A stretch of DNA of 34,957 nucleotides from contig CANCJE010000015.1 in NCBI GenBank assembly GCA_947378235.1, positions 1-34,957 of the forward strand. Direction: 5' to 3'. This DNA comes from Caulobacteraceae bacterium (GTDB lineage: Bacteria; Pseudomonadota; Alphaproteobacteria; Caulobacterales; Caulobacteraceae). Both the position numbers and the translations under genes were made by a program. The notes under the pieces are model-generated. The model was not told the origin of the DNA, did not search any database, and saw only the letters and a program-made list of their open reading frames with translations. Within the stretch, counting starts at the first letter, position 1; every line of letters starts with the position of its first letter. Positions 4,224 through 34,252 of the stretch are shown in pieces.

Positions 4224-4309
4224 GGTCTGAGCCCTTTGGCCAATCGCAAGGCTTGACCTGACCCAGCGTCAACCCTCACCCTATGTCAAAACATAAGGGA
4301 GACGCCGCC

Positions 4310-6127
<1,818 letters not shown>

Positions 6128-7887: not shown

Positions 7888-9393
7888 TTACTTGCTATAT
7901 TGGAACGTCGCGTCGTCGAGATCGATCTGGGGGAATAGATCCTTCTCGGCCCAATAATCTTGGGTGTGCTGCCATTCGGGCTTGTCGCCGCGACGGGGCA
8001 GAAGGTGCATGCCGCGCATCAGATAGCCGGGATTGAAGTTTTCGGGGTCCATCCAAGGCAAGAGCGGCATGTCCTTGTCCTCGGGGCGCAACGTTGGCGT
8101 GACCGCCTTGACGCCCTTCTTGTCCATATGGTTGAGCAAACGCGCGACAAAGTCTCCGATCAGATCGGCCCGCAGGGTCCAACTGGCGCGGAAATAGCCG
8201 AACACCCAGATCATGTTAGGTACGCCGGTAAACATCATGCCGCGATAGGTGACGGTCTTTGAAAAATCCAAAGCCTCGCCATTGATCGAGAAATTGATGT
8301 CGCCCAGCACGTTTAGGTTAAAGCCGGTCGCGGTGATGATGATATCGGCCTCAAGCTCGGTGCCCGATTTCAGCAATATGCCCTTTTCGGTAAAGCGCTC
8401 GATCTCGTCGGTAACAACACTGGCCTTGCCCGAGGCGATGCCTTGGAAAATGTCGCCGTCCGGCACGAAGGCGATGCGCTGGCGCCAAGGGCGATAGGTC
8501 GGGCTAAAGTGCTTTTGCACGGTCTCTTCGGGCAGAAAGGCGCGAACGCCGGAGAGCAGCTCTTCGCGCACCACATCCGGTTCCTCGATGGACCGGCGGG
8601 TAAATTCACCCTGATCGAACAGGATCTGACGGCGAGCAATCTCGTGAATCCACTCCTCCTTGACCTCAAGCTTGCGCAGATTGTCGACCAGGTCATTGCC
8701 ATTGCGGCCGGGGATGAAATAGGTCGGTGAACGCTGGAGCAGGGTCACATGCTCGCATTCGGCCGCAATGGCCGGCACCACGGTCGCTGCCGTCGCGCCA
8801 GACCCGATGACCAACACCTTCTTGCCCTTATAGGCTAGATCTTTAGGCCAGGTCTGGGGATGGACGATCTTGCCCTTGAACTGGTCCATGCCCGGCCATT
8901 CAGGCGTGTAGCCCTCATCGTGGCGGTAATAGCCTTGGCACATCCACAGGAAGTTGGTCGTGAAGACGCAGCTCTCGCCCGTGGTCTTATTGACGGCGGT
9001 GATGGTCCAGAGATTGTCCTTGCCTGACCAACTGGCCGACAGGATCTTGTGGCCATAACGGATGTGGCGATCCAGATCATTCTCTTCAATCACCTCGCCC
9101 ATATATTTGAGGATCTCTTCGGCCGACGCGATTGGCGCACCGACCCAAGGCTTAAAGCGATAGCCGAACGTATAGAGGTCACTGTCCGAACGAACGCCGG
9201 GATAGGTGTGGGTCAGCCAAGTGCCGCCAAAACTCTCCTGCGTCTCCAGCACGACGAAGCTCTTGCCCGGGCACTGATCTTTGAGGTGATATGCACCGCC
9301 CACGCCAGAAATGCCGGCTCCGACGATCAGGACGTCGAAATGCTCGGTTGCGGTCGTGTCGTTGGACTTTGCCAGTGTTGCGGTGTCGGCCAT
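7888..9393 (-). CDS. Flavin-containing monooxygenase, Baeyer-Villiger/EthA-like
   Basis: A 501-residue FAD/NADPH monooxygenase of the EthA-like (ethionamide-activating) Baeyer-Villiger group. FAD motif GAGISG (25-30) is followed by GGTWLTHTYPGVRSDSD. The fingerprint FKGKIVHPQTW (172-182) fits F-x-G-x3-H-x3-W, and the NADPH Rossmann motif is GSGATA (197-202). ATGFN near residue 356 is the conserved C-terminal ATG motif. A typical Shine-Dalgarno sequence (AGGAGAGG) precedes the ATG at 9393. Such enzymes oxidise linear, aryl or cyclic ketones, or sulfur compounds. The gene is divergent from the lactonase-like amidohydrolase at 9659, and its 3' end abuts a type E repeat. It is only distantly similar to the long monooxygenase at 4310, so the two probably act on different substrates. 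Confidence 0.9.
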   Translation of the reverse strand: MADTATLAKSNDTTATEHFDVLIVGAGISGVGGAYHLKDQCPGKSFVVLETQESFGGTWLTHTYPGVRSDSDLYTFGYRFKPWVGAPIASAEEILKYMGEVIEENDLDRHIRYGHKILSASWSGKDNLWTITAVNKTTGESCVFTTNFLWMCQGYYRHDEGYTPEWPGMDQFKGKIVHPQTWPKDLAYKGKKVLVIGSGATAATVVPAIAAECEHVTLLQRSPTYFIPGRNGNDLVDNLRKLEVKEEWIHEIARRQILFDQGEFTRRSIEEPDVVREELLSGVRAFLPEETVQKHFSPTYRPWRQRIAFVPDGDIFQGIASGKASVVTDEIERFTEKGILLKSGTELEADIIITATGFNLNVLGDINFSINGEALDFSKTVTYRGMMFTGVPNMIWVFGYFRASWTLRADLIGDFVARLLNHMDKKGVKAVTPTLRPEDKDMPLLPWMDPENFNPGYLMRGMHLLPRRGDKPEWQHTQDYWAEKDLFPQIDLDDATFQYSK

Positions 9394-20715: not shown

Positions 20716-22317
20716 TTAGATGCCGGACAGGATCATCCGAGCGGCCTTTTCGGCGATCATCAGGGTCGGGGAGTTGGTATTGCCCGAGGTGATGGTCGGC
20801 ATGATCGAGGCATCGGCAATGCGAAGCCCTTCGATGCCATGGACCCGAAGTTGGTCATCCACCACCGCCATAGGGTCGCCCCTCAGGCCCATCTTGGCGG
20901 TCCCGACCGGATGGAAGATGGTTGTGCCCAGCGACCGAGCGGCGGCCAAGAGGTCGGCGTCTGACTGGGCCTCAGGGCCGGGCCTGTGTTCCTGCGGGGC
21001 AAAGCGCTGCAAGGGAGACTGAGCCACAATCTTGCGCACCAGACGCAAGGAGTCGATGGCAACCTGCTCATCTTCGGGCGTCGACAGATAGTTGGGCTGG
21101 ATCAGGGGCGCGTCCTGCGCCCTCGCGCTGGCCAGATGGATCGATCCACGACTGGTCGGACGCAGATTGCAGACGCTGATGGTGATGGCCCCGAAGGAAT
21201 GGAGCGGCTCGCCGAACCGGTCGAGCGACAGGGGCTGGACGTGGAACTGAACATTGGCCCGTTCCTGATCGGGTGACGAGCGGGCAAAGGCCCCCATCTG
21301 AGACGGAGCCATCGACATGGGCCCGCGCCGAAACAGGGCATATTCCAGCGCCATCAGGGGCCTGCGCCACAGGGAGCCATAAAGGACGTTCATGGTCGGC
21401 ACACCGCTGACCTTATAATAGGGCCGGATCTGCAGATGGTCTTGCAAGCCCTCCCCCACCCCCGGCAAATGGGCCTTGGTCTCGATACCCAAAGCCTGAA
21501 GACGCGCCCCGTCGCCGAGACCCGACAGTTCTAGAAGTTGCGGCGTCCCCACGGCACCGGCGGTCAAAACCACCTCAGCCGATGCACGAGCCTCGAATTC
21601 CTGTCCGCCTCGGCTGTAGGCAACGCCCACCGCACGGCCCTGCTCAATCAGGATCCGCGTGACCCGCACGCCGGTTTCAAGCTTGAGATTTTGGCGGTGC
21701 AGGACCGGCTTTAGAAAGCCCCGCGCCGCACTCCAACGCCGACCGGTCTTCTGGTTGACCTGAAAATAGCCCGCGCCCTCATTATCGCCGCCATTGAAAT
21801 CTGCCACAGGCGCAATGCCTTCCTCAGCCGCAGCCTCGGCGAAAGCATCCAGAACCTTCCAGCGCATCCGTGGATGCTCGACGCGCCACTCCCCGCCGCT
21901 GCTATGGAGCGCGCTTGGCGGGTTGATATGGTCCTCTTGGGCCATAAAGAGCGGCAGGACATCATCCCAGCCCCAGCCGTTCAGGCCCATCGCCTTCCAG
22001 CCGTCATAGTCCGCCGCCTGTCCGCGCATATAGATCATGGCATTGATCGCCGAGCTGCCGCCAATGACCTTGCCGCGCGGATAGCTCAGCTTGCGGCCAT
22101 CTAGCCCGTCAATGGGCTGGGTCTGGAACATCCAGTCGGCGCGTGGATTGCCGATCGAGAACAGATAACCGACCGGGATATGGAACCAGATCCAGTCATC
22201 CTTGCCCCCGGCCTCCAGCACCAGCACCCGCTTGGACGGGTCCGCCGATAGCCGGTTGGCCAGCACGCAGCCGGCTGAGCCTGCACCGACAACAATGTAA
22301 TCAAAGCTGCCGGTCAT
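20716..22317 (-). CDS. GMC family oxidoreductase (choline dehydrogenase-like)
   Basis: A 533-residue FAD-dependent glucose-methanol-choline oxidoreductase, which oxidises alcohols to aldehydes or ketones. The FAD motif is VVGAGSAGCVLANRLS (about 9-24), the PROSITE-type GMC signature is GKVIGGSSAINAMIYMRG, and the C-terminal catalytic pair is H469 (HPVGTAKMG) and N513 (SGNTNSPT), spaced as in choline oxidase. No signal peptide is seen, so it is probably cytoplasmic. It begins ten bases after the APH-like kinase stop, so the two are cotranscribed. Choline itself is not a safe guess; closely related enzymes oxidise medium-chain and terpenoid alcohols. Confidence 0.92.
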   Translation of the reverse strand: MTGSFDYIVVGAGSAGCVLANRLSADPSKRVLVLEAGGKDDWIWFHIPVGYLFSIGNPRADWMFQTQPIDGLDGRKLSYPRGKVIGGSSAINAMIYMRGQAADYDGWKAMGLNGWGWDDVLPLFMAQEDHINPPSALHSSGGEWRVEHPRMRWKVLDAFAEAAAEEGIAPVADFNGGDNEGAGYFQVNQKTGRRWSAARGFLKPVLHRQNLKLETGVRVTRILIEQGRAVGVAYSRGGQEFEARASAEVVLTAGAVGTPQLLELSGLGDGARLQALGIETKAHLPGVGEGLQDHLQIRPYYKVSGVPTMNVLYGSLWRRPLMALEYALFRRGPMSMAPSQMGAFARSSPDQERANVQFHVQPLSLDRFGEPLHSFGAITISVCNLRPTSRGSIHLASARAQDAPLIQPNYLSTPEDEQVAIDSLRLVRKIVAQSPLQRFAPQEHRPGPEAQSDADLLAAARSLGTTIFHPVGTAKMGLRGDPMAVVDDQLRVHGIEGLRIADASIMPTITSGNTNSPTLMIAEKAARMILSGI

Positions 22318-22327: not shown

Positions 22328-23377
22328 CTAGCGGTTCAGGACGGCCAATGCCGTATCGGCCAAGATCTTCACGCCACTATTGTCGCCATGGGCGTCAGAG
22401 GTGCCGATGCCATCCAGATTGCGCTTGAAGACGCCTTGCGAGATCGAGGCCAGACGAAACAGCGAAAAGGCCAGATAGAAGTTAAACTCTGGGATCGCGC
22501 CTCGCCCCGTGCGGCGGCAATAGGCGGCGACATAGTCCTCTTCTGACGGAATGCCCGAGGTGGCCAGATCAATGCCGTCAAAGGTGCCCCAGCTCTCAGA
22601 CCGCGAATGCCACAGGATGCAGTTATAGGCCAGATCGGCCAGCGGGTGACCCAGCGTCGATAGCTCCCAGTCCAGAACCGCAATGATGCGTGGCTCGGTC
22701 GGATGGAACATCACATTCTCAAGCCGATAGTCGCCATGCGCGATGGTCACCGTATCATCGGCTGGCACCAGCCCTGGCAGGGCCTCGATCAGGGCCTCCA
22801 TAGCCCCGATCCGCTCGGTCTCGGCACCGCGATATTGCTTGATCCAGCGACCGATCTGACGCTCGAAATAGTTGCCGGGGCGGCCATAGTCGGCCAGACC
22901 GATGGTGTTGGGATCGATGGCGTGCAGTTGCACCATCACCGCGCCCAACTCGTCATAGATGGCCGTGCGCTCAGTGGGGGTCATGCCGGGCAGACGGGCA
23001 TCACGGAAGATGCGGCCCTCTAGGAAGTCCATCACATAAAAGGTTGCCCCTGCGACGCTGTCATCTTCGCATAGGGCCCGCATGGTCGGGACAGGAAAGC
23101 CGACCTTGCCCAGCGCCGACATAACCCGAAACTCACGATCGACCTGATGGGCGCTGGCCAGCAACTGCCCCGGCGGCTTCTTGCGCATCACATAGCGCTT
23201 GCCGCCCGCCGTCAGCATATAGGTCGGGTTAGAGGCACCGCCCTGAAACTGTCGCACCGACAGAGGGCCGTGATAGCCCTCGACATTGGCCGCAAGCCAT
23301 CGATCCAACGCCGCTTCGTCCAGCCTGTGGGCGGGGCGCACATCACCGATAGTCGGTTGTCCTGGATCAGCACTCAT
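22328..23377 (-). CDS. APH-fold phosphotransferase, ACAD10/11- and LvaA-like
   Basis: A 349-residue aminoglycoside-phosphotransferase-fold kinase. The Brenner motif [13 protein letters not shown] (H214, D216, N221) supplies the catalytic Asp, and [18 protein letters not shown] (D236) the metal-binding Asp. [10 protein letters not shown] holds the ATP-binding Lys, and the front end has [10 protein letters not shown]. This wording, especially [15 protein letters not shown], is that of the kinase domain of ACAD10/ACAD11 and of bacterial LvaA-type kinases, not of antibiotic-resistance enzymes. LvaA phosphorylates a 4-hydroxyacyl-CoA so that an ACAD-like partner can eliminate phosphate. The ATG at 23377 (GGAG eight bases upstream) is preferred over an in-frame start five codons earlier. 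It is followed ten bases later by the GMC gene. A role on a hydroxyacyl-CoA is inferred. Confidence 0.86.
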
Positions 23378-23457
23378 GGTTCGGTCTCCCAATAGGTCTT
23401 TTCATGGTCTCTACGCCCTTTCCCCAAAGGCGCCCAAAGCGGAATTTTGGCGGTGGA

Positions 23458-23886
23458 CTACCTCGCCTTGGCCATACTGGTTTCATACTGATCGGGGTGG
23501 ATCACATAATAGTCCAGATCCGCGAGCAGCTTGACCCAGGCCTGATCCATATCGGCCGTCCAGTCCTTGGCCAGCAACGCCTTTAAGGTCGCTGCAACGG
23601 TGGCAAAGAACATGCGAAAGACGTCGGGCGGCACGTCATAGCCCTCATGGGTCACGACCTCGCACTGGATCATGGTGCTGGCATATTTGCGCTCGCCGAC
23701 GAAATCGAGAATAGCCTCAAAGACCCGCGACAACATCTCGCCCTTCACCGCGTGGTTGGTATCGCGCCAAAACAGGGCCTCCATCTCAGGATGCTCTCGA
23801 AAAAGTCGCTCATAGACCAGCGGCGTAAGATCCTCACAGCGTTCAGCAGCAAGTTCCAGACTGGCTTCGATCAGGCTTGCGCTCAT
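23458..23886 (-). CDS. Globin family protein
   Basis: A 142-residue single-domain globin-like protein. The pattern LTPLVYERLFREHPEMEALF is the B-C helix region of bacterial haemoglobins, and CEVVTHEGYDVPPDVFRMFF carries the likely proximal haem His in the H-x4-V arrangement. Oxygen or NO binding, or haem-based sensing, is the family role. The frame is open further upstream, but the ATG at 23886 matches the family start and lies five bases after the GFA stop, with AGGG upstream. It sits in an operon with a GFA protein before it and kinase and GMC genes after it. Its purpose there is not known. Confidence 0.76.
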   Translation of the reverse strand: MSASLIEASLELAAERCEDLTPLVYERLFREHPEMEALFWRDTNHAVKGEMLSRVFEAILDFVGERKYASTMIQCEVVTHEGYDVPPDVFRMFFATVAATLKALLAKDWTADMDQAWVKLLADLDYYVIHPDQYETSMAKAR

Positions 23887-23891
23887 CAGCC

Positions 23892-24299
23892 CTAACCTGC
23901 GGCCTGTCCAAAGCGGCGAACCCCAGCAATGGGGGCGACCCAATCAGGGGCATGGTCGGCATAGACCTCGACGCCCGGCGTGACGGTGCTCAAATCATCC
24001 AGTGTTCCGGCCTTGACCATGACCACACCCGGCATCAGGTCGATCTTGGAGAGAATGGGCGAGCCGCAGTTGGCGCAGAAGTGACGATAGACTCCCTTGC
24101 CGCTGTCGCCCTTGTCCTGAAAGACCTTGGTCTCACCCTGCTGGACATAGTCCGCTTCCATGACCACCATATTGGTCGAGAAGACACTGCCGCTTTGGCG
24201 CTGGCAGTGGGTGCAGTGGCAAATAGCCGTGACGGTTGGCTCGGCCTTCAGTTCATAGCGCACTGCGCCGCACAGGCATCCGCCCTTTCGTTCCGACAT
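23892..24299 (-). CDS. GFA family zinc protein (glutathione-dependent formaldehyde-activating-like)
   Basis: A 135-residue GFA-domain protein. Zinc-binding cysteines are visible in GGCLCGAVRY near the N-terminus, ICHCTHCQRQSGS in the middle, and FCANCGSPI. Members bind zinc; the glutathione-dependent formaldehyde activity of the founder is not general. The frame runs 75 codons further upstream, but the ATG at 24299 (GGGAG eight bases before it) gives the standard family start MSERKGGCLCG. It is the first gene of the operon continuing with the globin (five-base gap), and is divergent from the GST gene across 139 bp. Confidence 0.85.
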   Translation of the reverse strand: MSERKGGCLCGAVRYELKAEPTVTAICHCTHCQRQSGSVFSTNMVVMEADYVQQGETKVFQDKGDSGKGVYRHFCANCGSPILSKIDLMPGVVMVKAGTLDDLSTVTPGVEVYADHAPDWVAPIAGVRRFGQAAG

Positions 24300-24438
24300 C
24301 CTAATCGCTCCCAGATTCTGTTTTGCTCTTGGGCCAAACTCTAGGTCCGATTGGCGCAAAGTCATAGGGGCTCGATCAAACTCTTGACGCGCCCTGCCCC
24401 AGACCCGACTAATCGGGGAACCATAAGAGGAAACGTCA

Positions 24439-25056
24439 ATGAAGTTGCATAATTCCGTAGGCCCAAACCCGCATGTGGTGCGGATGTTCATGGCCGAAAA
24501 GGGCATCACCTTGCCCATCGTCACGGTCGACCTGATGGGCGGTGAAAACCGTCGCCCGCCCTATAACACAGAGGTCAATCCCGCCGGCCAAACGCCTGCG
24601 CTGGAACTGGACGATGGCAGCTTTGTCTGCGAAATCACCACCATCTGCGAATATCTCGAAGAGGTTCAGCCCTCCCCGGCCCTGATCGGCACGACGCCTG
24701 AAGAGCGTGCTGAGACCCGCATGTGGACGCGCCGCATCGACCTGAACATCTGCGAACCCATGACCAACGCCTTCCGGGCGGCCGAGGGTCGTCCAATCTT
24801 TGAAAAGCGGATCATGCTGGTCGGCCCCAGCGGTGCCGAAGAGCTGAAGGCCATCGCCAAGGATCGCCTCAAATGGTTTGGCGACCAGATGGGGGATCGT
24901 CAGTTCGTCTGCGGCGATCGCCTGACGCTGGCCGACATTTTGCTCTACTGTTTCTTGACCTTCGGCGCCGCCGTCGGCCAGCCGCTCGCGGCGGAACATG
25001 CTTGGACGGCCGCTTGGATCAAGCGCATGGACGCGCGCCCAAGCGCTAAGGCCTAG
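24439..25056 (+). CDS. Glutathione S-transferase family protein
   Basis: A 205-residue cytosolic GST. The N-terminal thioredoxin-like domain includes SVGPNPHVVRMFMAEKGI, GENRRPPYNTEVNPAGQTPAL and the glutathione-gamma-glutamyl site region FVCEITTICEYLEE. The C-terminal helical domain contains CGDRLTLADILLYCFL with the N-capping box Asp. AAGAGGAA lies shortly before the ATG. The TAG stop overlaps the stop of the convergent PaaI-like gene through CTAG. It stands alone on the plus strand between two minus-strand operons; a detoxification role for reactive pathway intermediates is a guess. Confidence 0.88.
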   Translation: MKLHNSVGPNPHVVRMFMAEKGITLPIVTVDLMGGENRRPPYNTEVNPAGQTPALELDDGSFVCEITTICEYLEEVQPSPALIGTTPEERAETRMWTRRIDLNICEPMTNAFRAAEGRPIFEKRIMLVGPSGAEELKAIAKDRLKWFGDQMGDRQFVCGDRLTLADILLYCFLTFGAAVGQPLAAEHAWTAAWIKRMDARPSAKA

Positions 25057-25559
25057 CCTTCGGTTGAGGGTAAGGGGTTGGCGGCCTTGATCTTCTCGAT
25101 CACGCCCGATAGCCCCGCCCCGCCGATCTCCTTACCCAGCTTAAAGACCCCGCTGGCCCGGCCACAGAGCTCGCCATCGGCGGTGATCAGACATTGGGCA
25201 AAGGCCATATTGCGGGTGAGTTTCAGCACCTGCGCGGTGCCTTCGACCCAACTGCCGAGCGGAGCCGGGGCCAGAAACTCTTGGCTGAGTTGAATGGTCG
25301 GCATGAAACGTCCGCGCATCTTGCTCTGATGGGCAATCGACATGGGCATCAGCATGTCGATGAAGGTGGCCAGCATGCCGCCGTGGCAGATCTGCATGGG
25401 GTTACAGTGGCGCATCTCGACCCGAAAGCCGAGCTTTAACACCTCACCGTGGGGGTTTAGCCAAAGGGGGCCATTGGCACCGATAAAGCCGATCTCGATG
25501 GGAAAGGCGGCAAAGCCGACGGGCGCGTTAATCTCTTCAATGGACAGTGTCTGGGTCAT
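25053..25559 (-). CDS. PaaI-type hotdog thioesterase
   Basis: A 168-residue hotdog protein of the PaaI-like acyl-CoA thioesterase branch. PMQICHGGMLATFIDMLMPMSI (about 55-76) is the H-G-G catalytic helix region, and TIQLSQEFLAPAPLGSWVEGTAQVLKLTRNMAFAQCLI is the usual following strand set. It starts 34 bp after the EcKL-like kinase stop on the same strand, making it the last gene of the P450 - rubredoxin - kinase - thioesterase block. It releases free acid from an acyl-CoA; the acyl group is unknown. Confidence 0.83.
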   Translation of the reverse strand: MTQTLSIEEINAPVGFAAFPIEIGFIGANGPLWLNPHGEVLKLGFRVEMRHCNPMQICHGGMLATFIDMLMPMSIAHQSKMRGRFMPTIQLSQEFLAPAPLGSWVEGTAQVLKLTRNMAFAQCLITADGELCGRASGVFKLGKEIGGAGLSGVIEKIKAANPLPSTEG

Positions 25560-25593
25560 GGGGGCAGCGCTATCAGCACTGCCCTTGCGGCGC

Positions 25594-26685
25594 CTAGTCC
25601 AAAAGTTTCATGGCACCAAGATCGAGCACCTGGGCGGCACCGCTTTCCAGCATCGAAAAGAACATGTCATCGCCCCGCTCGGTACGTCCCACGATCATCG
25701 AGGCCGAATAGGCCATGTTGAACAGCGAGAAACTATAGTGGGCATAGTCACGCATGAGCTTTTCAAAGGGATAGTCTCGCACCCCCAATGAGATCAGACG
25801 TGCATGATAGGCCTTGAGCAATTCCTGCTCATTGGCCTTGCGGTCCTGCGGCGACAGGGCACCGGCGAGGAAGTAGGACACATCGGCCATACAGCAGCCA
25901 TAGCCGATGGACTGCCAGTCGACGATGGCGATGGGATAGCCGCCTTCAGCCGTACCATACATCATATTGTCGGGGCGAAAGTCGTTATGGGTCAGGCAGC
26001 GCGGCCCCTCATAGCCGAACTTGAACCGGTCGAAATTGGTGGTCAATTTCTCACCGATCGTCACACATTCCGGCAAGATCCGGTCGCCATAGCGCTCGCG
26101 AAAGCCAAGCCACAGGGTGCGCATCAGGTCCGCCCCGGCACTTTCAGGCCCCGCCGCCGAGCCGAAGATCCACGGCACCTGATCCCATCGGTCTTGCCCC
26201 CAATGGGACGCGGCCAGATGGGCGGCCTGATCGACCGATAGGGCCGCCTGGTCCAAGGTCACTCCGGCCACCTGATCGCCCTGAACCGCCGGGGCGAGGT
26301 CTTCCATCAGCAGCACGAAATCGCAGGTCTCTTCGTCGACATCCGTGAACAGCACCTTGGGCGTCGTCACCAGAGCCGTTGCGGCCAGTTGGCGATAGAA
26401 GTTCACCTCGCGCACATAGTTACCGAAATTCACACCCGTGGCGCGGCTTTCAGGATCTTGCGACGGGAACTTGCCGACCACCGTCTTGGGCGCGCCCTTG
26501 GCGTCACCGTCAAAATCGAGGGTAAAGCGCACGCTTTCACCCACCTGCCCGGTGCCGAACTTCTTAGCCGTGAAGGACGAGACCTTGGCCTCGATCCCGG
26601 CCTTGCCCAAGGCGGCGGTCAGCCAATCGTTCGTGATCTCAGCCGCCGGTAGGATCGGCGTCTTATTGGCCTGACGAGTGGGCAT
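25594..26685 (-). CDS. Ecdysteroid-kinase-like (EcKL/CHK) phosphotransferase
   Basis: A 363-residue kinase of the APH superfamily, closest in pattern to the EcKL/CHK branch rather than the APH-like kinase at 22328. Catalytic loop CLTHNDFRPDNMMY (H233, D235, N240) and metal-binding IVDWQSIGYG (D256) are intact; KTVVGKFPSQDP holds the probable ATP-binding Lys72, and FVLLMEDLAP is the hinge. Insect members phosphorylate steroid hydroxyl groups, and bacterial members are mostly uncharacterised. The gene is 83 bp after rubredoxin and 34 bp before the PaaI-like gene, all on one strand with the P450. Phosphorylation of the P450 product is inferred from this order. Confidence 0.82.
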   Translation of the reverse strand: MPTRQANKTPILPAAEITNDWLTAALGKAGIEAKVSSFTAKKFGTGQVGESVRFTLDFDGDAKGAPKTVVGKFPSQDPESRATGVNFGNYVREVNFYRQLAATALVTTPKVLFTDVDEETCDFVLLMEDLAPAVQGDQVAGVTLDQAALSVDQAAHLAASHWGQDRWDQVPWIFGSAAGPESAGADLMRTLWLGFRERYGDRILPECVTIGEKLTTNFDRFKFGYEGPRCLTHNDFRPDNMMYGTAEGGYPIAIVDWQSIGYGCCMADVSYFLAGALSPQDRKANEQELLKAYHARLISLGVRDYPFEKLMRDYAHYSFSLFNMAYSASMIVGRTERGDDMFFSMLESGAAQVLDLGAMKLLD

Positions 26686-26716: not shown

Positions 26717-26781
26717 CACGGATTTTTCATCCGTGTTCGCGCCTATCATGCACCCAATTGGGTCCAGCCTAAAGCTGGATC
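26717..26781. other. Cluster of stem-loops between rubredoxin and kinase genes
   Basis: Three perfect or near-perfect dyads lie in 65 bases. They are CACGGAT-TTTTC-ATCCGTG (26717-26735), the palindrome ACCCAATTGGGT (26752-26763), and TCCAGC-CTAAA-GCTGGA (26763-26779), which contains the rubredoxin stop codon. On the minus strand none is followed by a U tract, so an RNA-processing or partial-attenuation role between the operon's second and third genes is as likely as termination. Confidence 0.5.
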
Positions 26782-26948
26782 ATGTCAAAATCAGCCTTTG
26801 CGGTGCCGCAGAGCGGACAGACCCAATCCGCGGGAATATCCGCCCACCGGGTGCCCGCCGGCAGACCCTCTGAGGGGTCGCCGAACTCTTCTTCATAGAG
26901 ATAGCCACAGGTGCGGCACTGCCAGACCTTCCAGACCTCGAGCGTCAT
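26769..26948 (-). CDS. Rubredoxin
   Basis: A 59-residue rubredoxin, a one-iron electron carrier. The four iron ligands are C11 and C14 (CRTCGY) and C44 and C47 (CPLCGT), with the conserved core FGDPSEGLPAGTRWADIPADWVCP between them. The start at 26948 is eight bases after the P450 stop, so the genes are almost certainly cotranscribed; the frame upstream of this ATG overlaps the P450 and is not used. Rubredoxins usually serve AlkB-type alkane hydroxylases, while bacterial P450s usually use a [2Fe-2S] or [3Fe-4S] ferredoxin. No ferredoxin or reductase gene is in the window. Confidence 0.93.
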   Translation of the reverse strand: MTLEVWKVWQCRTCGYLYEEEFGDPSEGLPAGTRWADIPADWVCPLCGTAKADFDMIQL

Positions 26949-26956: not shown

Positions 26957-28231
26957 TCAGCTGGCTTTGAAGCGAATGGGCACGGCCTTGGGACCGCAGA
27001 CGAAGTTGGCCGCCATCCGGCGCGGCTCGCCATCCATCTCGACACTGTCGATACGGGCAAATAGCTCTTCCCAAAGGATGCGCATCTCCATCCGGGCCAG
27101 ATGCTGACCCAGACAGACATGGGCCCCATAGCCGAACGCAACATGCTTGTTGGGCGTGCGGTCAACCTTGAAGCTGAAGGGATCCTCAAACACCGCCTCG
27201 TCGCGATTTCCGGAGGGATAGGACAGGAACATCCAATCGCCCTTGGCGATCTTCTGACCAGCCAGTTCAGCATCCGCTGTCGCTGTCCGCATGAAGTGCT
27301 TGACCGGCGTGACCCAGCGGATGGATTCCTCGACCAAGCCATTGATCAGGGCGGGATTGGCCTTGACCTTGGCCCACTGGTCCGGGTTCTCCGCCAAGGC
27401 CCACATGGCCCCTGCCGTGGTCGAAGAAGTGGTATCATGGCCCGCTGTGGCCGCGATGATATAGTAGCTCATGGCCTCCAGATGACCCATGGGCTGACCA
27501 TTGACCTGGCCGTTGGCGATCACGCTGGCCAGATCTTGCCGGGGATTGGCGCGGCGATCTTCGGTGATGGCCATGAAATAGGTCATGAAGTCCATGACCA
27601 CCGACTGGATCGTATCGACCCCCGTATTGGTATCGCCGACGGCCGAACCAGAGCGGTTAAGCTCAGGATCGGCGCTGCCGAACAGTTCTTGAGTGAGTTT
27701 GAGCATGCGCGGCTCGTCCGTTTCCGGCACGCCGATCACCTCCATGATCACATGCAGTGGATAGAGGAAGGCCACGTCACGGGCGAAATCACACTGATCG
27801 CCCTTGGCCAACATGCCATCGACAAAGCCCTTCGCGATCTGGCGGATACGCGCTTCGAGAACGCGAAGGTTCTGGGGCAGGAACGAGCCTTGCGTCACCC
27901 GCCGATAGGCCATGTGATCGGGATTATCCATCTGGACCAAGGACCGCACCAGATGGGGCGAGCCGCCCATCATCTCGCGCACCTTCTTGTCCGCCGCGAT
28001 GGTCGTCACCACCGCCGAGCGGTCGCCATTGTGGAACAGGTCGTTCTGGCGTTCGACCTCGAGAATGTCGGCATGGCGCGTCACCACCCAAAAGGGATCA
28101 AACCCGTCCGGCTGAGCCACCGCCAGAGGTGACTCGCGGCGCAACTGGGCAAAGGCCTGATCGACGCGGTCGCCATCCGCATAGGCAAAGGGATCAACGA
28201 TGGTGTTGGCCAACGGGGTCGAAATGGTCAC
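26957..28231 (-). CDS. Cytochrome P450
   Basis: A 424-residue soluble bacterial P450 monooxygenase. I-helix oxygen-activation motif AGHDTT is at 263-268, ExxR at E302-R305 (EESIR), and the haem loop FGYGAHVCLG at 366-375 with ligand Cys373. The sequence resembles the CYP108/CYP125-like range of terpenoid- and steroid-hydroxylating bacterial P450s, but I cannot fix the family. The start is GTG at 28231 with AGGAGG nine bases upstream. It is the first gene of the block continuing with rubredoxin, and is divergent from a TetR regulator with dyads in the shared 118-bp gap, the usual arrangement for an inducible catabolic P450. Confidence 0.93.
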   Translation of the reverse strand: MTISTPLANTIVDPFAYADGDRVDQAFAQLRRESPLAVAQPDGFDPFWVVTRHADILEVERQNDLFHNGDRSAVVTTIAADKKVREMMGGSPHLVRSLVQMDNPDHMAYRRVTQGSFLPQNLRVLEARIRQIAKGFVDGMLAKGDQCDFARDVAFLYPLHVIMEVIGVPETDEPRMLKLTQELFGSADPELNRSGSAVGDTNTGVDTIQSVVMDFMTYFMAITEDRRANPRQDLASVIANGQVNGQPMGHLEAMSYYIIAATAGHDTTSSTTAGAMWALAENPDQWAKVKANPALINGLVEESIRWVTPVKHFMRTATADAELAGQKIAKGDWMFLSYPSGNRDEAVFEDPFSFKVDRTPNKHVAFGYGAHVCLGQHLARMEMRILWEELFARIDSVEMDGEPRRMAANFVCGPKAVPIRFKAS

Positions 28232-28320
28232 GGTGACAGTCCTCCTACACGCCTATGGTTCTGGCCCTACAGGCCCGATGCAGGCCGCTAGGATCGAGGG
28301 GTGGCGTTTCTATTTGATAG

Positions 28321-28344
28321 TTGTCCAACAAGTAAGTTACCTTG
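28321..28344. promoter_or_regulatory. Candidate TetR operator between P450 and tetR genes
   Basis: TTGTCCAACAA (28321-28331, TTGT/ACAA arms) overlaps a second dyad, CAAG-N8-CTTG (28329-28344), whose centre includes GTAAGTTAC. Both end just before the regulator's ATG at 28350. Position in the divergent promoter region next to a TetR gene makes an autoregulatory operator likely. Confidence 0.5.
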
Positions 28345-28349
28345 GCAAG

Positions 28350-28976
28350 ATGACTCAAGATGCCGCCGCCACGACAAACCGACGCAGCCAGAGCGACCGT
28401 CGCCAACAGTCCGAGCAGGGCCTGCTCAAGGCTGCTGCGGAACTGATTGTCGAGCAGGGTATGGCCTCCGCCACCTTTGAAAATATCGGTGCGCGGGCGG
28501 GCTATAGTCGGGGCCTGGCCACCCAGAAATTCGGGTCAAAACAGGGGCTGATCGAAGCCCTGATTGCCAGATTGCAAAGCCGGTTAGAAATCCAACTGGC
28601 CGCCCGCGATCTTGAGGCCGCCAGCGGTCTGGGAGCCATCCTCGCCTTCATCGACATCTATCTGCGGACCTTGGCCGAGGACGGTGAGCTTCGGGCCTAT
28701 TTCGTCCTCATGGCGGGGGCCGTCGCCGAACGGTCCGACATTCGAGACCCCTTCGCCGCCGCGCACCAAGACGTTAAGCACAGGCTGAGCCAGCTCTTCC
28801 TGCGCGGCCACGCCGACGGATCGGTGCGCACCGGCTTTGATCCCGACGCCGCCGCCCTGATGATCGGCGCGCAGCTTTTTGGCCTGAGCATGCAACTACT
28901 CCTCGACCCCGACCTCGATCTCGCCCCCATCCGCGAGACCTGCCTTGAGGCGGTGCGGTTGAGTTTTCAGGCCTAA
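28350..28976 (+). CDS. TetR family transcriptional regulator
   Basis: A 208-residue regulator. The N-terminal helix-turn-helix region is LLKAAAELIVEQGMASATFENIGARAGYSRGLATQKFGSKQGLIEALI (about 26-73), with the typical TetR recognition helix and the F/Y-G-S-K-Q-G-L end. The C-terminal ligand domain is mostly helical. The frame extends 50 codons upstream, but the ATG at 28350 gives the normal family length. No good Shine-Dalgarno sequence precedes it, so it may be leaderless or weakly translated. It is divergent from the P450 and probably represses that operon until a ligand binds (inference from arrangement). It is convergent with the S9 peptidase gene, with a five-base gap between stops. Confidence 0.88.
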   Translation: MTQDAAATTNRRSQSDRRQQSEQGLLKAAAELIVEQGMASATFENIGARAGYSRGLATQKFGSKQGLIEALIARLQSRLEIQLAARDLEAASGLGAILAFIDIYLRTLAEDGELRAYFVLMAGAVAERSDIRDPFAAAHQDVKHRLSQLFLRGHADGSVRTGFDPDAAALMIGAQLFGLSMQLLLDPDLDLAPIRETCLEAVRLSFQA

Positions 28977-28981
28977 ACTCC

Positions 28982-30928
28982 TTAGTTCGGGGGATTACAC
29001 CGCTCCAAAAAGGCGGTTGAAGCGGTTAGCATCTCAAGTCGGGTCTCGCTGGTGGAGAGCCAATGGTCCTCGCCTTTGAGAACGACCATCTCGACCGGCT
29101 TTCCTGCCCTTTTGAGCGCCGCTTCCATCCGCTTGCTCTGATCAATTGGCACGACCGTGTCATCGACGCCGTGAATAAGCAGGATAGGTGCTGAGGCCTT
29201 CGCCGCCTGAAGCTCGGGGGAAATAGCATCTAAGGTGGGGTCCCTGTCATTCTTGACCCCCAGATATTCGTGCCAATAGCGCGAGAACGCATTTCGACTG
29301 GTTCCATAGTTCGCGGACTGAAAGAGCAGTTGCTTACTCATGTTAGACGGCCCCGCCAGCGAGACCGCGCAGCGATAGATACCCGTCTGAAGCGTCACCC
29401 CTGCTAGGGCTGCATAGCCCCCATAAGACCCGCCAACAACGGCGACCCGCTTGGGGTCGACCAATCCCTTTTTGACGAGATCCGTAATACCGTCGGACAG
29501 ATCCGTCTGCATCTTGCGGCCATATTCGCCGTAGCCCGCACGCAAATGGTCAAGGCCAAATCCATCTGACCCTCGAAACTGCGGTTGAAGGACGGCATAG
29601 CCGCGTGACGCATAGGCCTGGGACCACCAGTCAAAGCCAATATCATCTCTGGCGAACGGGCCACCGTGCGGCAGTACGATCAGAGGCAAATCCTTGGCGG
29701 GCCGATCTCTCGGCACAGTCAGGTAGGCCGGAATATCCATCCCGTCTGCGGCGGCATAATGAATATATTGGCGCTCGCTGATCTCTTTGGGACCAACATT
29801 TTTATAGACATCACCGAACCATTTGGCACCGCCCGTCTTGCGATCAACGATGTAATATCCAAAGCCAAAATCCCCTCCAAACACCTGAACGATTAGACGG
29901 GTTCGATCATGGGATAGGGATATCAAGTCGACTTGCGCACCGGAAAAGGCCTTCAATACGGCTTGCCAGAGGGTTTGGTCTGACGCGGCTTCAAACTCGT
30001 AATCATTGGCGTTGTAAGCCAGCTTGCTGGATCCAATGACCACGTGGGTACCCTGCTCTTTGACGGTGCTTCGCCCTCGAAGATCGGTCAATTCATCACC
30101 CCAAGTTCCGGCTTGAACGGCCACTGTGTGGATGTGGTCATTCTCTTCATCTGGAATCGAGACGAAGACCTTTGCCTCGTCAGCGGACACACCGACAAAC
30201 CGGGGACGGTTGATCAGGTCTGTGCCCGATTGAACCAGCTTCAACTCGGACTTACCCGGCCCGACCAACACTTTCCAACGCCCGTCCTTCTTTGAATAGC
30301 GCACCTCACCCAGCACCGAGCCCGTCGGCCCAATCGCCCAGTCCGTCGTATCCAGCGTCCCCTCGGTTAGGAGCGACTCCAGGCCTGAATCCGTGTGCCT
30401 GATCAAGGAGATCACGGATTGATTGCCGGGGAAGGTCAGGCCGGGCACGATCAGGATGGTTTCACCGGATTTGTCCGTCGCGCGGACAGGCTGGCCGCCC
30501 AATACATTTACGGACCGGTCAAGACCGGTCAACAGGGCCTTGGCCTTATGAGTTTTGAAGTTCAATTCAGAACCCATGAAATATTCACGGGTCTTACCGT
30601 CTAGCGTCGAGAACTCACCCGTTCGGGAATAGACTAGCACCAGACGATCATCATCCGCCCAGAACACATTTCGAACCTTGGCCTTGGGCAGAGGAACATT
30701 GCCTGTGAGACTTAGGCTTTGGGCGTCGAACACCCGAACTGCGGCCCCGCCTTCATCGCGCACGATCACAGCGAAGGCTTTGCCGCTCGGGGTCATGCTT
30801 AAGGAGTCTATCAGCGGCAACCGCCCATAGGCCGACAGATCCGACCGGTCGGCAGCATGCCCTCTTCCCCAGACCAAAACCGAGGCAACGAGCCCCAACA
30901 GAATGGTCCGCAATCCGATCTTCAACAC
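28982..30928 (-). CDS. S9 family (prolyl oligopeptidase) peptidase, secreted
   Basis: A 648-residue serine peptidase or esterase. A signal peptide (about 26 residues ending near GRGHA) is followed by a beta-propeller-like N-terminal domain of about 370 residues and a C-terminal alpha/beta-hydrolase. The catalytic triad is S501 in GGSYGGYA, D590 in HGVDDTVVP and H622 in GEDHWLS. LIVLPHGGPFARDD carries the oxyanion region. The frame opens five codons earlier at another GTG, but the GTG at 30928 is chosen because AGGGAG lies six bases before it. Probably periplasmic or cell-envelope; it cleaves peptides or esters. A 19-bp perfect palindrome sits directly upstream. No evident link to the catabolic genes. 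Confidence 0.88.
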   Translation of the reverse strand: MLKIGLRTILLGLVASVLVWGRGHAADRSDLSAYGRLPLIDSLSMTPSGKAFAVIVRDEGGAAVRVFDAQSLSLTGNVPLPKAKVRNVFWADDDRLVLVYSRTGEFSTLDGKTREYFMGSELNFKTHKAKALLTGLDRSVNVLGGQPVRATDKSGETILIVPGLTFPGNQSVISLIRHTDSGLESLLTEGTLDTTDWAIGPTGSVLGEVRYSKKDGRWKVLVGPGKSELKLVQSGTDLINRPRFVGVSADEAKVFVSIPDEENDHIHTVAVQAGTWGDELTDLRGRSTVKEQGTHVVIGSSKLAYNANDYEFEAASDQTLWQAVLKAFSGAQVDLISLSHDRTRLIVQVFGGDFGFGYYIVDRKTGGAKWFGDVYKNVGPKEISERQYIHYAAADGMDIPAYLTVPRDRPAKDLPLIVLPHGGPFARDDIGFDWWSQAYASRGYAVLQPQFRGSDGFGLDHLRAGYGEYGRKMQTDLSDGITDLVKKGLVDPKRVAVVGGSYGGYAALAGVTLQTGIYRCAVSLAGPSNMSKQLLFQSANYGTSRNAFSRYWHEYLGVKNDRDPTLDAISPELQAAKASAPILLIHGVDDTVVPIDQSKRMEAALKRAGKPVEMVVLKGEDHWLSTSETRLEMLTASTAFLERCNPPN

Positions 30929-30938
30929 GAAAGACTCC

Positions 30939-30957
30939 CTCACTCAGCCTGAGTGAG
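30939..30957. promoter_or_regulatory. Perfect 19-bp palindrome at the S9 peptidase ribosome-binding region
   Basis: CTCACTCAG-C-CTGAGTGAG has perfect 9-bp arms. On the minus strand it runs straight into the GGGAG Shine-Dalgarno sequence of the peptidase gene. It can be an operator, or in RNA a hairpin with a 7-bp stem next to the ribosome-binding site. No U tract follows, so it is not a terminator. Confidence 0.55.
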
Positions 30958-31019: not shown

Positions 31020-31835
31020 TCAGCTATCCGAATAGTTCGGCGCACGCTTTTGCAAGAAGGCCGTCATGCCTTCGCGCACGTCGGCGGTCTGGGAACAGAG
31101 GATCTGGTTGCGGTCTTCCATGGCGATGGCCGCTTCAAGGCTCTGGGAATCGACGCTCATATTCAGACATTCCTTGGTCAGGCGAAGGCCCAGCGGCGAG
31201 GTTGTGACCATGTCGTCCAGATAGGCGCGCGCCGCCTTGGTCAGGTCGGCATCGGGAACCACTTCGCTGACCAGACCGACACTCAAGGATCGCTCGGCAT
31301 TGATGAAGCGCCCGGTCAGCATCAGCTCGGACGCCACCGACACGCCCACGAGGCGCGGCAGGAAATAGGATACACCAATATCGCAGGCCGACAGGCCGAT
31401 GCGGATAAAGGCGGCATTCATGCGCGCGCTTTCACCCGCAATCCGGATGTCGGATGCCAGCGCCAGCGCAAAGCCACCGCCGCAGGCTGGACCTTGAACC
31501 AGCGAGATGATCGGCTGCTGACAGCGGCGCATGCGCATGACGATCTCGGAGATGCGGCGCTGACTGAGCAGCCCCGCCGCCGGACCACGCGGCGCATTAT
31601 CGTCGGGCCGAGCCTCCATGCTCTCCTTGATGTCGAGCCCGGCGCAAAAGGCCCTGCCCGCCCCCCGAAGCACCACAATGCGGGTCTTACGATCAAAATA
31701 GAGACCGCCGAAATAGTCGAGCAGATCATCGACCATCTGACCGTTCAGCGTGTTGAGCGCCTCGGGCCGGTTCAGCGTCACCCAATCAATTGGGCCTTCT
31801 TTTTCAATCAACAATGTGGCGTAGGGCGCGGGCAT
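31020..31835 (-). CDS. Enoyl-CoA hydratase/isomerase family protein
   Basis: A 271-residue crotonase-fold enzyme. NRPEALNTLN near residue 22 and GAGRAFCAGLDIKES (about 58-72) are the opening signatures; QGPACGGGFALALASDIRIA (about 114-133) supplies the oxyanion hole. The segment IRIGLSACDIGVSYFLPRLVG has Asp near the position of one of the two catalytic Glu residues of classical hydratases, as in many EchA-like paralogues. It hydrates or isomerises 2-enoyl-CoAs in beta-oxidation-like steps. It is the last gene of a three-gene operon, 17 bp after the acyl-CoA dehydrogenase stop. Confidence 0.9.
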   Translation of the reverse strand: MPAPYATLLIEKEGPIDWVTLNRPEALNTLNGQMVDDLLDYFGGLYFDRKTRIVVLRGAGRAFCAGLDIKESMEARPDDNAPRGPAAGLLSQRRISEIVMRMRRCQQPIISLVQGPACGGGFALALASDIRIAGESARMNAAFIRIGLSACDIGVSYFLPRLVGVSVASELMLTGRFINAERSLSVGLVSEVVPDADLTKAARAYLDDMVTTSPLGLRLTKECLNMSVDSQSLEAAIAMEDRNQILCSQTADVREGMTAFLQKRAPNYSDS

Positions 31836-31852: not shown

Positions 31853-33094
31853 CTAGGCCGTTGGGATCTTGTTGAAGGCTATGCCCTTGTCGGCACGCAT
31901 ATCGTCGGGCAGGCCAAGGACCCGCTCGCCGATGATGTTGCGCAAGATCTCGTCCGTACCGCCTTCGACGCGGGTGGCGGGCGAGCGCAGCAGTTGGGCT
32001 TGGAACTTCGCCGCCATGGCCGCCAGCTTCGGATCGGACACGGCCCCGGCCTGACCCTGAAGGTCGAGCGCGAACATGGCGATCTCTTGCAGGCTGGAAC
32101 CGGCCACCAGCTTGCCGATGGAGTTTTCTGGCCCCGGATTTTCACCGCGCGACAGGGCCGAGATGGCCCTCATGCCGGTATATTTCAGGCCGCTCTGACG
32201 GCAGGCCCACTCGGCTAGCTTGGAACGAACGCCCCGGTCGTTGATGGCCAGCGTGCCATCGGCCAGTTCCAGTTCCTTGCAGAACTCGAAAATGTCTGGG
32301 AAGCCCGCGCTCATGCCCGAGCCGATGGACAGGCGCTCGTTCATCAAGGTGGTCAGTGACACCTTCCAGCCCTCGCCCACGCCGCCGAGGCGCTGGCTGT
32401 CTGGCAGGCGGACATTGTCGAAATAGACCTCATTGAAGCCTGACTGACCGTTGGCCTGCTTGATCGGCACGATGCGCACGCCGGGTGTGTCCATGCGCAG
32501 GAAGAACATGGTCAGGCCCTTGTGCTTGGGCACGTCAGGGTCGGTGCGGGTGATCAGGATGCCCCACTGTGAGTAGTGCGCGCCGCTGGTCCAGATCTTC
32601 TGGCCATTGATGACCCAGTCGTCGCCATCGCGCTCAGCCTTGGTGCGCAAACCGGCCAGATCGGAGCCACCTGCGGGTTCGGAGAACAGTTGGCACCAGA
32701 TATCTTCACCCGCCGCCAAACGCGGCAAGAGCTCGCGCTTGGCCTCTTCTGGACCCCAGTCCATGACCGTTGGGCCGCACATACCGTGACCGATAATGAA
32801 GGAGCCAGACAGGGCCGCATATGGCCCCTCTTCTTGGTTCCAGATCACGCGCTCGATGGGGCTGGCACCGCGTCCGCCATATTCCTTAGGCCAGTGCAGA
32901 CAGGCCCATCCGGCGTCATACTTCTTCTTCTGCCAAGCCTTGGCCTCCTTCATGGGGTCAAGACCGCCCAGCTCAATCCCACCGAAACCGGCCTTTTCGA
33001 GGTGGGGCAGCAGGTGCTTAGGGGCGTTGGCGTCGATCCAGGCGCGGGCTTCGGCGCGGAAGGCGGCTTCGTGCGGTGTGTCGTCGAAATTCAT
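31853..33094 (-). CDS. Acyl-CoA dehydrogenase family protein (large partner)
   Basis: A 413-residue FAD-dependent acyl-CoA dehydrogenase, introducing a 2,3 double bond into an acyl-CoA. FSEPAGGSDLAGLRTKAERDGDDWVINGQKIWTSGAHY (about 137-174) is the flavin and substrate-binding middle domain; RVEGGTDEILRNIIGERVLGLP near the C-terminus is the segment that in relatives holds substrate and flavin contacts. The N-terminal WPKEYGGRGAS is typical. It lies 30 bp downstream of a second, shorter dehydrogenase and 17 bp upstream of the hydratase. Paired adjacent genes of this type in actinobacterial cholesterol catabolism form alpha2-beta2 heterotetramers; the same is inferred here. AGGGA precedes the start. 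Confidence 0.91.
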   Translation of the reverse strand: MNFDDTPHEAAFRAEARAWIDANAPKHLLPHLEKAGFGGIELGGLDPMKEAKAWQKKKYDAGWACLHWPKEYGGRGASPIERVIWNQEEGPYAALSGSFIIGHGMCGPTVMDWGPEEAKRELLPRLAAGEDIWCQLFSEPAGGSDLAGLRTKAERDGDDWVINGQKIWTSGAHYSQWGILITRTDPDVPKHKGLTMFFLRMDTPGVRIVPIKQANGQSGFNEVYFDNVRLPDSQRLGGVGEGWKVSLTTLMNERLSIGSGMSAGFPDIFEFCKELELADGTLAINDRGVRSKLAEWACRQSGLKYTGMRAISALSRGENPGPENSIGKLVAGSSLQEIAMFALDLQGQAGAVSDPKLAAMAAKFQAQLLRSPATRVEGGTDEILRNIIGERVLGLPDDMRADKGIAFNKIPTA

Positions 33095-33124: not shown

Positions 33125-34252
33125 TTAGGCAGCGTTCTTGGCGCGCAGCCGGTCGATCAGTTTGTCTTCCCATTCATTCAAGCCCCCGAGGCTGACAGCC
33201 AAGAGGTTGGAGCGGCGATAATAGAGGTGGCAGTCCATGGCCCAGGTAAAGCCCATACCGCCGTGCACTTGGATATTGTTCTTGGCGCAATGTTGGAAAG
33301 CCTTGGTCGAGCTGACCCGCATGGTCGCGGCGGCTTCAGCAAGGTCTGCCGAGCCAGTCGACAGGGCATAGGCCCCGAAATAGCCGTTCGAGCGGGCCAA
33401 GGTGGCCGAGACATACATATCGGCCAGCATATGCTTGATGGCTTGGAACGAGCCGATGGCGCGGCCAAAGGCAAATCGTTGCAGGGCATAGTCGCGGCCC
33501 ATCTCCAGCGCCTTATCGGCCCCGCCGATCTGTTCAAAGCCGGTCAGGATCGCGGCGCGGTCCAGCGCCTCTTCGTAAAGACGCCAGCCATCGCCCGCTG
33601 CACCGACCAGTTCGGCCGCTGCGTCCTTAAAGGCGATCTTGGCTTGGCTGCGCGATGGATCGATCGTGTCCAGCACGGTGCGCTCGATGCCGGACTGGTT
33701 CAGATCCACCAGATAGAGCGACAGACCCTGCGCATCCTTACCCGGCGCATGGCGGGCCAAGACGATGGCAATGTCAGCAATATCGCCGTCCAGTACGGGC
33801 GACTTGGCTCCCGTCAGGGTTCCAGCCTTGGCCGACAGGGCGACGTTTGAAGGCCGCACAGACCCGGTTGCCTCAACCGAGGCCAGGGTGCCGATCACTT
33901 CGCCCGAAGCGAGCTTAGGCAACCATCTTTGCTTTTGCTCTTCGCTACCCGCCGCCTTGAGGATTTCAGCGACCAGGAAGATTGAGGAGGAGACGGGCAC
34001 GGGTGCCAAGGCGCGGCCAAGCTCTTCGGCTATGACGCAAAGCTCCAGATAGCCTAGGCCGAGCCCGCCATATTCCTCCGGGATCGCTGCGCCCAAAAAG
34101 CCCATCTCGCCCAGACCCTGCCACAGGGCCCGATCAAAGGGGTCAGAGCCTTCCAAAATGGCGCGCACGGCCGTGGTCGGGCACTTGTCCGCCAGATAAC
34201 GGCGCGCCTGTTCCTTGAGTTGCTGTTGTTCAGCCGAAAATTCGAAATCCAT
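33125..34252 (-). CDS. Acyl-CoA dehydrogenase family protein (small partner)
   Basis: A 375-residue acyl-CoA dehydrogenase-fold protein, first gene of the operon. The start MDFEFSAEQQQLKEQARRYL, AAIPEEYGGLGLGYLEL and the C-terminal QVHGGMGFTWAMDCHLYYRR place it in the family. The middle domain is less canonical than in its neighbour: the flavin-contact segment reads SVEATGSVRPSNV instead of the T-E-P-x-x-G-S-D type. The FTWAMD segment has Ala-Met where I recall Glu-His in relatives. It is probably the partner subunit of the 31853-33094 gene rather than an independent enzyme (inference). GAGGAA lies six bases before the ATG. Confidence 0.88.
   Translation of the reverse strand: MDFEFSAEQQQLKEQARRYLADKCPTTAVRAILEGSDPFDRALWQGLGEMGFLGAAIPEEYGGLGLGYLELCVIAEELGRALAPVPVSSSIFLVAEILKAAGSEEQKQRWLPKLASGEVIGTLASVEATGSVRPSNVALSAKAGTLTGAKSPVLDGDIADIAIVLARHAPGKDAQGLSLYLVDLNQSGIERTVLDTIDPSRSQAKIAFKDAAAELVGAAGDGWRLYEEALDRAAILTGFEQIGGADKALEMGRDYALQRFAFGRAIGSFQAIKHMLADMYVSATLARSNGYFGAYALSTGSADLAEAAATMRVSSTKAFQHCAKNNIQVHGGMGFTWAMDCHLYYRRSNLLAVSLGGLNEWEDKLIDRLRAKNAA

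Follow-up and report, generated by a model that had tools for sequence, protein, structure and literature searches.

Two APH-fold kinases in a catabolic region of a Caulobacteraceae genome and a putative oxygenase-kinase module

The 34,957-nucleotide contig CANCJE010000015.1 of a freshwater Caulobacteraceae bacterium (assembly GCA_947378235.1; this whole stretch is the window, contig C15 of genome G000) encodes two kinases of the aminoglycoside phosphotransferase (APH) fold, K1 and K2. The genome comprises 2.8 Mb in 211 contigs and is 89% complete. K1 (22328..23377, minus strand, 349 amino acids) is most likely a 4-hydroxyacyl-CoA kinase of the LvaA/ACAD10-11 type. K2 (25594..26685, minus strand, 363 amino acids) is an EcKL/DUF1679-like bacterial kinase and is predicted to phosphorylate an oxygenase-derived hydroxyl on a lipophilic molecule. 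Taken as a whole, we consider this explanation evenly poised between right and wrong. K1 would be a further member of a known kinase type, and phosphorylation in catabolism is itself already known; the more interesting part is the oxygenase-kinase modules around K2 and its relatives rather than the kinase pair.

Two intact kinases and their immediate neighbours

Both kinase genes are present and intact, as the original prediction had it. K2 starts with the ATG at 26685 and K1 with the ATG at 23377, the listed open reading frame (ORF) of K1 beginning at a TTG at 23392. The assignment of the two proteins to different branches of the APH superfamily was borne out by a blastp comparison, in which K1 and K2 align over 42 residues only, around the catalytic loop (33% identity, E 4e-4). 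Both catalytic loops are indeed complete: K1 keeps the Asp and Asn of HGDYRLEN, and K72, E93, H233, D235, N240 and D256 of K2 are invariant in a 56-row alignment.

Each kinase had also been placed next to an oxygenase or oxidase, which was partly correct. Directly after K1, 10 bases away, lies the gene of a GMC oxidoreductase (20716..22317, minus strand; best NCBIfam model choline dehydrogenase, 558 bits vs a cut-off of 605). GMC enzymes form a dehydrogenase/oxidase family and are not oxygenases. Upstream of K2 the first gene encodes a rubredoxin, 83 bases off, which the original prediction had overlooked; a cytochrome P450 gene is found 8 bases past the rubredoxin.

K1 as a putative 4-hydroxyacyl-CoA kinase

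K1 matches PF01636 (APH) with 180 bits (E 8.7e-53). Over nearly its whole length it matches the Ralstonia protein 3dxp (388 bits) and ACAD11 (8v3v, 275 bits), with blastp identities of 54% to the 3dxp fragment and 40.8% over 348 columns to the ACAD11 fragment. The protein carries the motifs [12 protein letters not shown] and DWE. Besides the catalytic Asp and Asn it retains two Arg, one next to the alpha-C Glu and one in YFERQ, so that every ACAD11 residue compared is present. The available text of PMC12440821 ties the equivalent Asp, Asn and two Arg of ACAD11 to catalysis and CoA binding. Its catalytic residues are D220 and N225; R86 is off that number in the printed chain, and the alpha-C Arg was therefore placed by its description.

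According to the available parts of PMC12440821 and PMC11342911, the lva operon and ACAD10/11 serve 4-hydroxy acid catabolism: 4-hydroxyacyl-CoAs are phosphorylated by the ACAD10/11 kinase domains and then lose the phosphate through the acyl-CoA dehydrogenase (ACAD) domain that comes next, which bears an HCMR motif and a catalytic Asp. The genome G000 encodes two such LvaC-type dehydrogenases with R-x7-HCMR and the Asp of DGPDEVH (C14:19419-20669 and C88:1420-2694), which are 83% identical to each other and neither of which is near K1. They were found among 29 loci of G000 with an acyl-CoA dehydrogenase C-terminal match, 28 of which gave an ORF for comparison; two further ACADs have the Asp and lack HCMR. 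An HCMR-type ACAD is encoded about 100 bases or less from a kinase 52% identical to K1 in at least 8 further genomes of the family. All 8 of these ACADs, picked by eye among the matches listed, carry both the HCMR motif and the Asp. The linked kinases of four genomes (L283-L286) read HGDFSIRN in place of HGDYRL(D/E)N.

K1 thus resembles LvaA/LvaC of Pseudomonas putida and ACAD10/ACAD11 of mammals in its full-length match to the ACAD11 kinase domain, with the named residues, and in the presence of LvaC-type dehydrogenases with HCMR and Asp in the same genome. The likeness to LvaA is drawn via the ACAD11 kinase domain, not via LvaA's own sequence. It differs in that kinase and dehydrogenase are here neither fused nor adjacent, K1 standing beside the GMC gene. 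We infer that K1 acts like LvaA with its partner in trans: it would phosphorylate the 4-hydroxyl of an acyl-CoA, and a LvaC-type dehydrogenase encoded elsewhere in the genome would remove the phosphate, giving an enoyl-CoA for beta-oxidation.

K2 and its oxygenase neighbourhoods

K2 scores 51 bits with PF02958 (EcKL), 51 bits with PF01636 and 46 bits with PF07914 (DUF1679), all above the thresholds. The AlphaFold model (pLDDT 94.5) gave generic fold matches to choline, N-acetylhexosamine, methylthioribose and aminoglycoside kinases, which occur throughout the superfamily and are therefore uninformative on substrate; the steroid kinase 25-HSK is in the same list at Z 17.0, a superfamily-wide level. 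No assigned substrate was found for the bacterial EcKL/DUF1679-like family. Homologs of K2 (E 1e-10) occur in 40 of 149 genomes of the family, and plasmid records label K2-like genes 'phosphotransferase', 'ecdysteroid 22-kinase family protein' or 'oxidoreductase family protein'. Insect EcKL proteins, which phosphorylate lipophilic alcohols, resemble K2 in that K2 exceeds the Pfam cut-off (51 vs 22 bits). The match, however, covers residues 229-298 only and PF01636 scores equally, and K2 is bacterial and found in oxygenase operons.

Neighbourhoods were compared in relatives of K2 taken from a scan of named genomes (best 80 of 341, 79 with a called K2 gene). A SnoaL-like gene lies directly upstream of K2 in 48/79 relatives, and in 45/79 it is preceded by the gene of an FAD monooxygenase (FMO). 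This FMO-SnoaL-K2 triple is spread across Parvibaculaceae, Rhodobiaceae, Caulobacteraceae, Hyphomonadaceae and one Sphingosinicellaceae strain, and its genes may overlap by 1-4 bases (L062, L071). On the 79-row K2 tree the SnoaL label changes 14 times, compared to a shuffled mean of 24.6, and the arrangement has therefore been lost or gained repeatedly. The K2 of the window groups with a locus that has the triple (L182), at a weakly supported fork (82/54). L182 is the nearest tree row outside the own genus; by identity a Parvibaculum K2 is closer (65%). An FMO-SnoaL pair is also encoded in G000, on contig C1, with 67% and 58% identity to the pair of locus L067; each of the two is 73% identical to its L182 counterpart, the highest value among the eight matches listed. 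FMO and K2 co-occur in 27/149 genomes vs 8.3 expected.

The SnoaL-like partner in the K2 operons of relatives matches MonBI/MonBII (NTF2 fold) at E 1e-6; the match is restricted to 42 residues, and limonene-1,2-epoxide hydrolase, of the same fold, is reached at E 0.15 or worse. The FMO model matches p-hydroxybenzoate hydroxylase at Z 38 and squalene epoxidase at Z 36, so that epoxidase and aromatic hydroxylase are not told apart. In Sphingopyxis terrae a gene annotated as ester cyclase, a name of the SnoaL type, precedes a K2-like gene (26% identity), and a Sphingobium record annotates ester cyclase and K2-like kinase as one fused ORF. FMO-SnoaL pairs also occur without K2, beside a same-strand gene of about 700 amino acids (L262, L264 and L265, genus g22). 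On Rhodococcus and Mycobacterium plasmids K2-like kinases are grouped with PEP-utilizing enzymes (L272, L255, L258). On plasmid pROB02 the K2-like kinase is also joined by a tyrosine-protein phosphatase and by another gene named EcKL, which makes a cluster of several phosphoryl-transfer enzymes.

In the window itself K2 follows a P450 and a rubredoxin. The P450 (26957..28231, minus strand) is over its full length 46% identical to P450terp (CYP108A1, 1cpt) and 47% to 3tkt, which we take to be CYP108D1. By convention more than 40% identity places a P450 in the same family, and the window P450 is thus a CYP108 enzyme. The rubredoxin (26769..26948, minus strand, 59 amino acids) has two CxxC pairs and matches PF00301 above the cut-off (73 bits), whereas the stricter NCBIfam rubredoxin model was missed (67 vs 90 bits). 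P450terp is paired with the 2Fe-2S protein terpredoxin; in contrast, the window P450 adjoins a rubredoxin and then a kinase. The rubredoxin is a possible and unusual P450 redox partner. The rubredoxin mentioned in the available part of PMC12472514 is an AlkB fusion.

The P450-rubredoxin pair (26769-28231) is also found on two sphingomonad plasmids (L257, L273). On a Sphingobium YC-XJ3 plasmid, P450, rubredoxin, a K2-like kinase and an ACAD-like protein are encoded between IS21 copies. Identities to the window are 35% for the kinase, 50% for the rubredoxin and 64% over 188 residues for the P450, which is a 200-amino-acid fragment beside an IS21 element; the ACAD-like protein has no match to the window ACADs at E 1e-3. 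Novosphingobium EMRT-2 has a divergent TetR gene, the P450 and the rubredoxin, and its gene table lists no kinase; for P450 relatives in Qipengyuania and Croceibacterium neither rubredoxin nor kinase is listed alongside, the gene tables of the plasmids being incomplete. K2 is followed, in three Caulobacter-type metagenome-assembled genomes (MAGs), by another P450, TetR, a ligase and two ACADs, the P450 being named by Pfam, the ACADs by kinship and the others by eye.

The catabolic setting is made up by further genes of the window. A Baeyer-Villiger monooxygenase (BVMO) of the PtlE (pentalenolactone D synthase) type is encoded at 4283..6127 on the plus strand (845 bits vs a cut-off of 1100); PtlE is a sesquiterpenoid enzyme. 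Two ACADs on the minus strand form a pair. One (31853..33094) has a probable catalytic Glu in RVEGGTDEIL, a position that we assume from other ACADs, and its best NCBIfam model is the pimC large subunit (203 bits vs a cut-off of 624). The other (33125..34252) apparently lacks the catalytic acid, and its best models are IpdE2, a steroid enzyme, and the pimD small subunit; pimC, pimD and IpdE2 all stay below cut-off. The pair probably represents a two-subunit type. A substrate of alicyclic or terpenoid nature is suggested by the PtlE-like BVMO in combination with the CYP108 P450 and the ACAD pair. A steroid is mildly disfavoured: KshA_C (PF19298) has no match in the 89%-complete G000, a weak argument against steroid-ring degradation, as 0/14 control genomes exceeded that cut-off and the model has no positive control.

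Gene identities, intact catalytic residues and conserved gene orders thus lead to a predicted role of K2. The kinase would phosphorylate a hydroxyl that stems from an oxygenase, or from epoxide opening, on a lipophilic and perhaps terpenoid-like molecule. The oxygenase would here be the adjacent CYP108 P450, with electrons perhaps delivered by the neighbouring rubredoxin, and in relatives most often the FMO of the FMO-SnoaL-K2 operon. The phosphate would turn the hydroxyl into a leaving group for a presumed elimination, as in the lva pathway and in anaerobic sterol degradation. The closest mechanistic precedent is 25-HSK (PDB 9fsg and 9ft5, by title), which phosphorylates a tertiary steroid alcohol before phosphate elimination (PMC8449060, available part). 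Both are APH-fold kinases, and K2 would share with 25-HSK the use in isoprenoid catabolism and phosphate as leaving group. The 25-HSK system differs in being anaerobic, Mo-hydroxylase-linked and without an oxygenase.

Going further, we tentatively propose that bacteria use lipophilic carbon sources by a modular pathway that first oxygenates and then phosphorylates. The oxygenase would be interchangeable (FMO with a SnoaL-type epoxide-opening partner, or CYP108 P450 with rubredoxin) and an EcKL-type kinase would make the leaving group, as an aerobic counterpart of 25-HSK on another kinase branch; here the pathway would feed a second, LvaA-type phosphorylation after CoA activation. This extended scheme is on the whole doubtful. 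Phosphorylation as a means to remove hydroxyls that block beta-oxidation was recognised only recently, with the lva operon, ACAD10/11 and 25-HSK. Were it true of the K2 modules, a bacterial kinase family would acquire a function in the degradation of terpenoids or further lipophilic compounds, with the conserved FMO-SnoaL-kinase operon as a compact, testable target, and the P450-rubredoxin pair would point to an unusual P450 redox partner. The literature searched, with most subscription journals outside its coverage, contains no description of FMO-SnoaL-kinase or P450-rubredoxin-kinase modules, and neither the oxygenase-coupled branch of EcKL nor its operons seem to have been described there.

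Relation of the two kinases, alternatives and the surrounding genes

The original prediction took two kinases in one catabolic region to suggest more than one phosphorylated intermediate. The CYP108-family P450, the PtlE-like BVMO and the ACAD pair agree with a catabolic region, and two phosphorylated intermediates are plausible; a single shared pathway is not required. A second, different APH kinase lies near FMO-SnoaL-K2 in 5/79 loci, all in Parvibaculaceae/Rhodobiaceae, and one of these, compared with K1, is 32% identical. On plasmids of Rhodococcus ruber and R. aetherivorans an APH kinase (389 and 388 amino acids, respectively) is one gene away from a K2-like kinase. Such recurrent pairs support the idea, put forward in the original prediction, of two kinases acting within one catabolic region. 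K1 and K2 themselves are separable, since two genomes of the same genus (G036, G048) hold the K1 side without K2. K2 is present in 2/7 genomes of the genus, several of them incomplete, namely G000 and its sister G001, a Caulobacteraceae MAG with a 98% identical K2. Of the stretches retrieved around relatives of K1 and K2, only that of G001 has both kinases together. Across the 149 family genomes K1 and K2 co-occur in 27 vs 9.7 expected, a figure uncorrected for relatedness and to be read beside a GMC-K2 control that is also enriched.

Several results weigh against the explanation proposed here. In G036 and G048, K1, GMC, globin, GFA, glutathione S-transferase (GST) and thioesterase are kept and K2 has no match. 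No HCMR ACAD is near K1, either in the window or in 20 fetched stretches with K1 orthologs (4.8-19.9 kb each). For K2, no close solved relative was found and no phosphate lyase candidate was identified; 34/79 relatives are without the full triple (4 of the 79 at contig edges), and the co-occurrence of FMO and K2 is confounded by relatedness and by a catabolic guild effect, the control pair GMC and K2 occurring in 25/149 genomes vs 14 expected. CYP108J1 is reported in polycyclic aromatic degradation in the available part of PMC12472514, therefore CYP108 does not fix a terpenoid substrate and aromatics stay possible. Finally, K2 as a 25-HSK was rejected on sequence (22.5% identity over 244 columns to the 25-HSK fragment compared). 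In the available part of PMC8449060, Denitratisoma is given with 51-55% identity and Actinobacteria with no more than 46%; K1, at 25.7% to the same fragment, is below ortholog level and was rejected as well.

Different roles for the kinases were considered. K2 might detoxify, phosphorylating oxygenase-made lipophilic alcohols to hold or inactivate them as insect EcKL does, with no elimination step. The family resemblance and the frequent oxygenase neighbours fit such a phase I/phase II logic, and GST genes are nearby in 6/79 relatives. Yet the window and at least 3 other K2 loci are embedded with ACADs, ligase or enoyl-CoA hydratase, which suggests carbon-source use, and we regard detoxification as unlikely. 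Similarly improbable is that K2 phosphorylates a tertiary alcohol for dehydration, as an aerobic functional counterpart of 25-HSK on another kinase branch. P450terp does act on the tertiary alcohol alpha-terpineol. Sterol breakdown by 25-HSK demonstrates that an APH-fold kinase can do this chemistry (PMC8449060, available part), but K2 is no ortholog of 25-HSK and G000 lacks a match to KshA_C, a model without positive control.

K1 could act on another alcohol, such as one consumed or produced by the adjacent GMC enzyme. It belongs to a subgroup of its own (at least 62% identity, in at least 36/149 family genomes; orthologs outside the genus 62-77% identical), unlinked to HCMR ACADs in the stretches seen, and the GMC gene is immediately adjacent. 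Against this, all compared ACAD11 residues are retained and the GMC gene was seen beside K1 in this genus only; we give this role little credence. Very improbable, in our view, is that either kinase belongs to primary metabolism (choline, methylthioribose, homoserine) or is a resistance phosphotransferase and is here by chance. In structure K2 best matches choline, N-acetylhexosamine and methylthioribose kinases, and K1 reaches 18-30 bits with curated NCBIfam resistance families. These fold matches are, however, common to the whole superfamily and the cut-offs are missed widely (best 29.6 bits vs 205), while K2 is patchy in distribution and repeatedly linked to oxygenases. An aminoglycoside or other resistance phosphotransferase was rejected for both, K2 matching no such family. 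The assignment of K1 as most likely a 4-hydroxyacyl-CoA kinase and of K2 as a putative kinase of oxygenase-derived hydroxyls is retained.

The genes of the minus strand run in the order ACAD2, ACAD1, enoyl-CoA hydratase (31020..31835, profile match), S9-type peptidase (28982..30943), P450, rubredoxin, K2 and a 4HBT thioesterase directly after K2 (25053..25559, profile match). Beyond a GST-like gene on the plus strand (24439..25056) the order continues with a GFA-domain protein (23892..24299), a globin-like protein upstream of K1 (23458..23886), both with starts as gene-called, K1 and the GMC oxidoreductase. The GST gene between them makes it probable that K1 and K2 belong to different transcription units; promoter and terminator scans of the window gave no more matches than shuffled sequences. 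The GST family is found within 6 genes of K2 in 6/79 relatives, the sister genome among them. A TetR-type regulator gene (28200..28976, plus strand, TetR_N at residues 75-121) is divergent to the P450; its listed ORF start overlaps the P450 start, and the true start is probably further on. A BVMO-like flavin monooxygenase is encoded at 7888..9393 on the minus strand, and its family is within 6 genes of K2 in 9/79 relatives. The window also has two PF04909 amidohydrolases (9659-10693 and 12138-13340).

Compared to window positions 28970-31005, the related loci L061, L081 and L082 have lost P450, rubredoxin, TetR and peptidase and retain short S9 peptidase remnants at the same junction. K2 and the peptidase are missing from L081, and the gap at their place (about 700-2250) is taken up by small AT-rich ORFs, preceded by two similar copies of a leader that the window has at 30922-31005.

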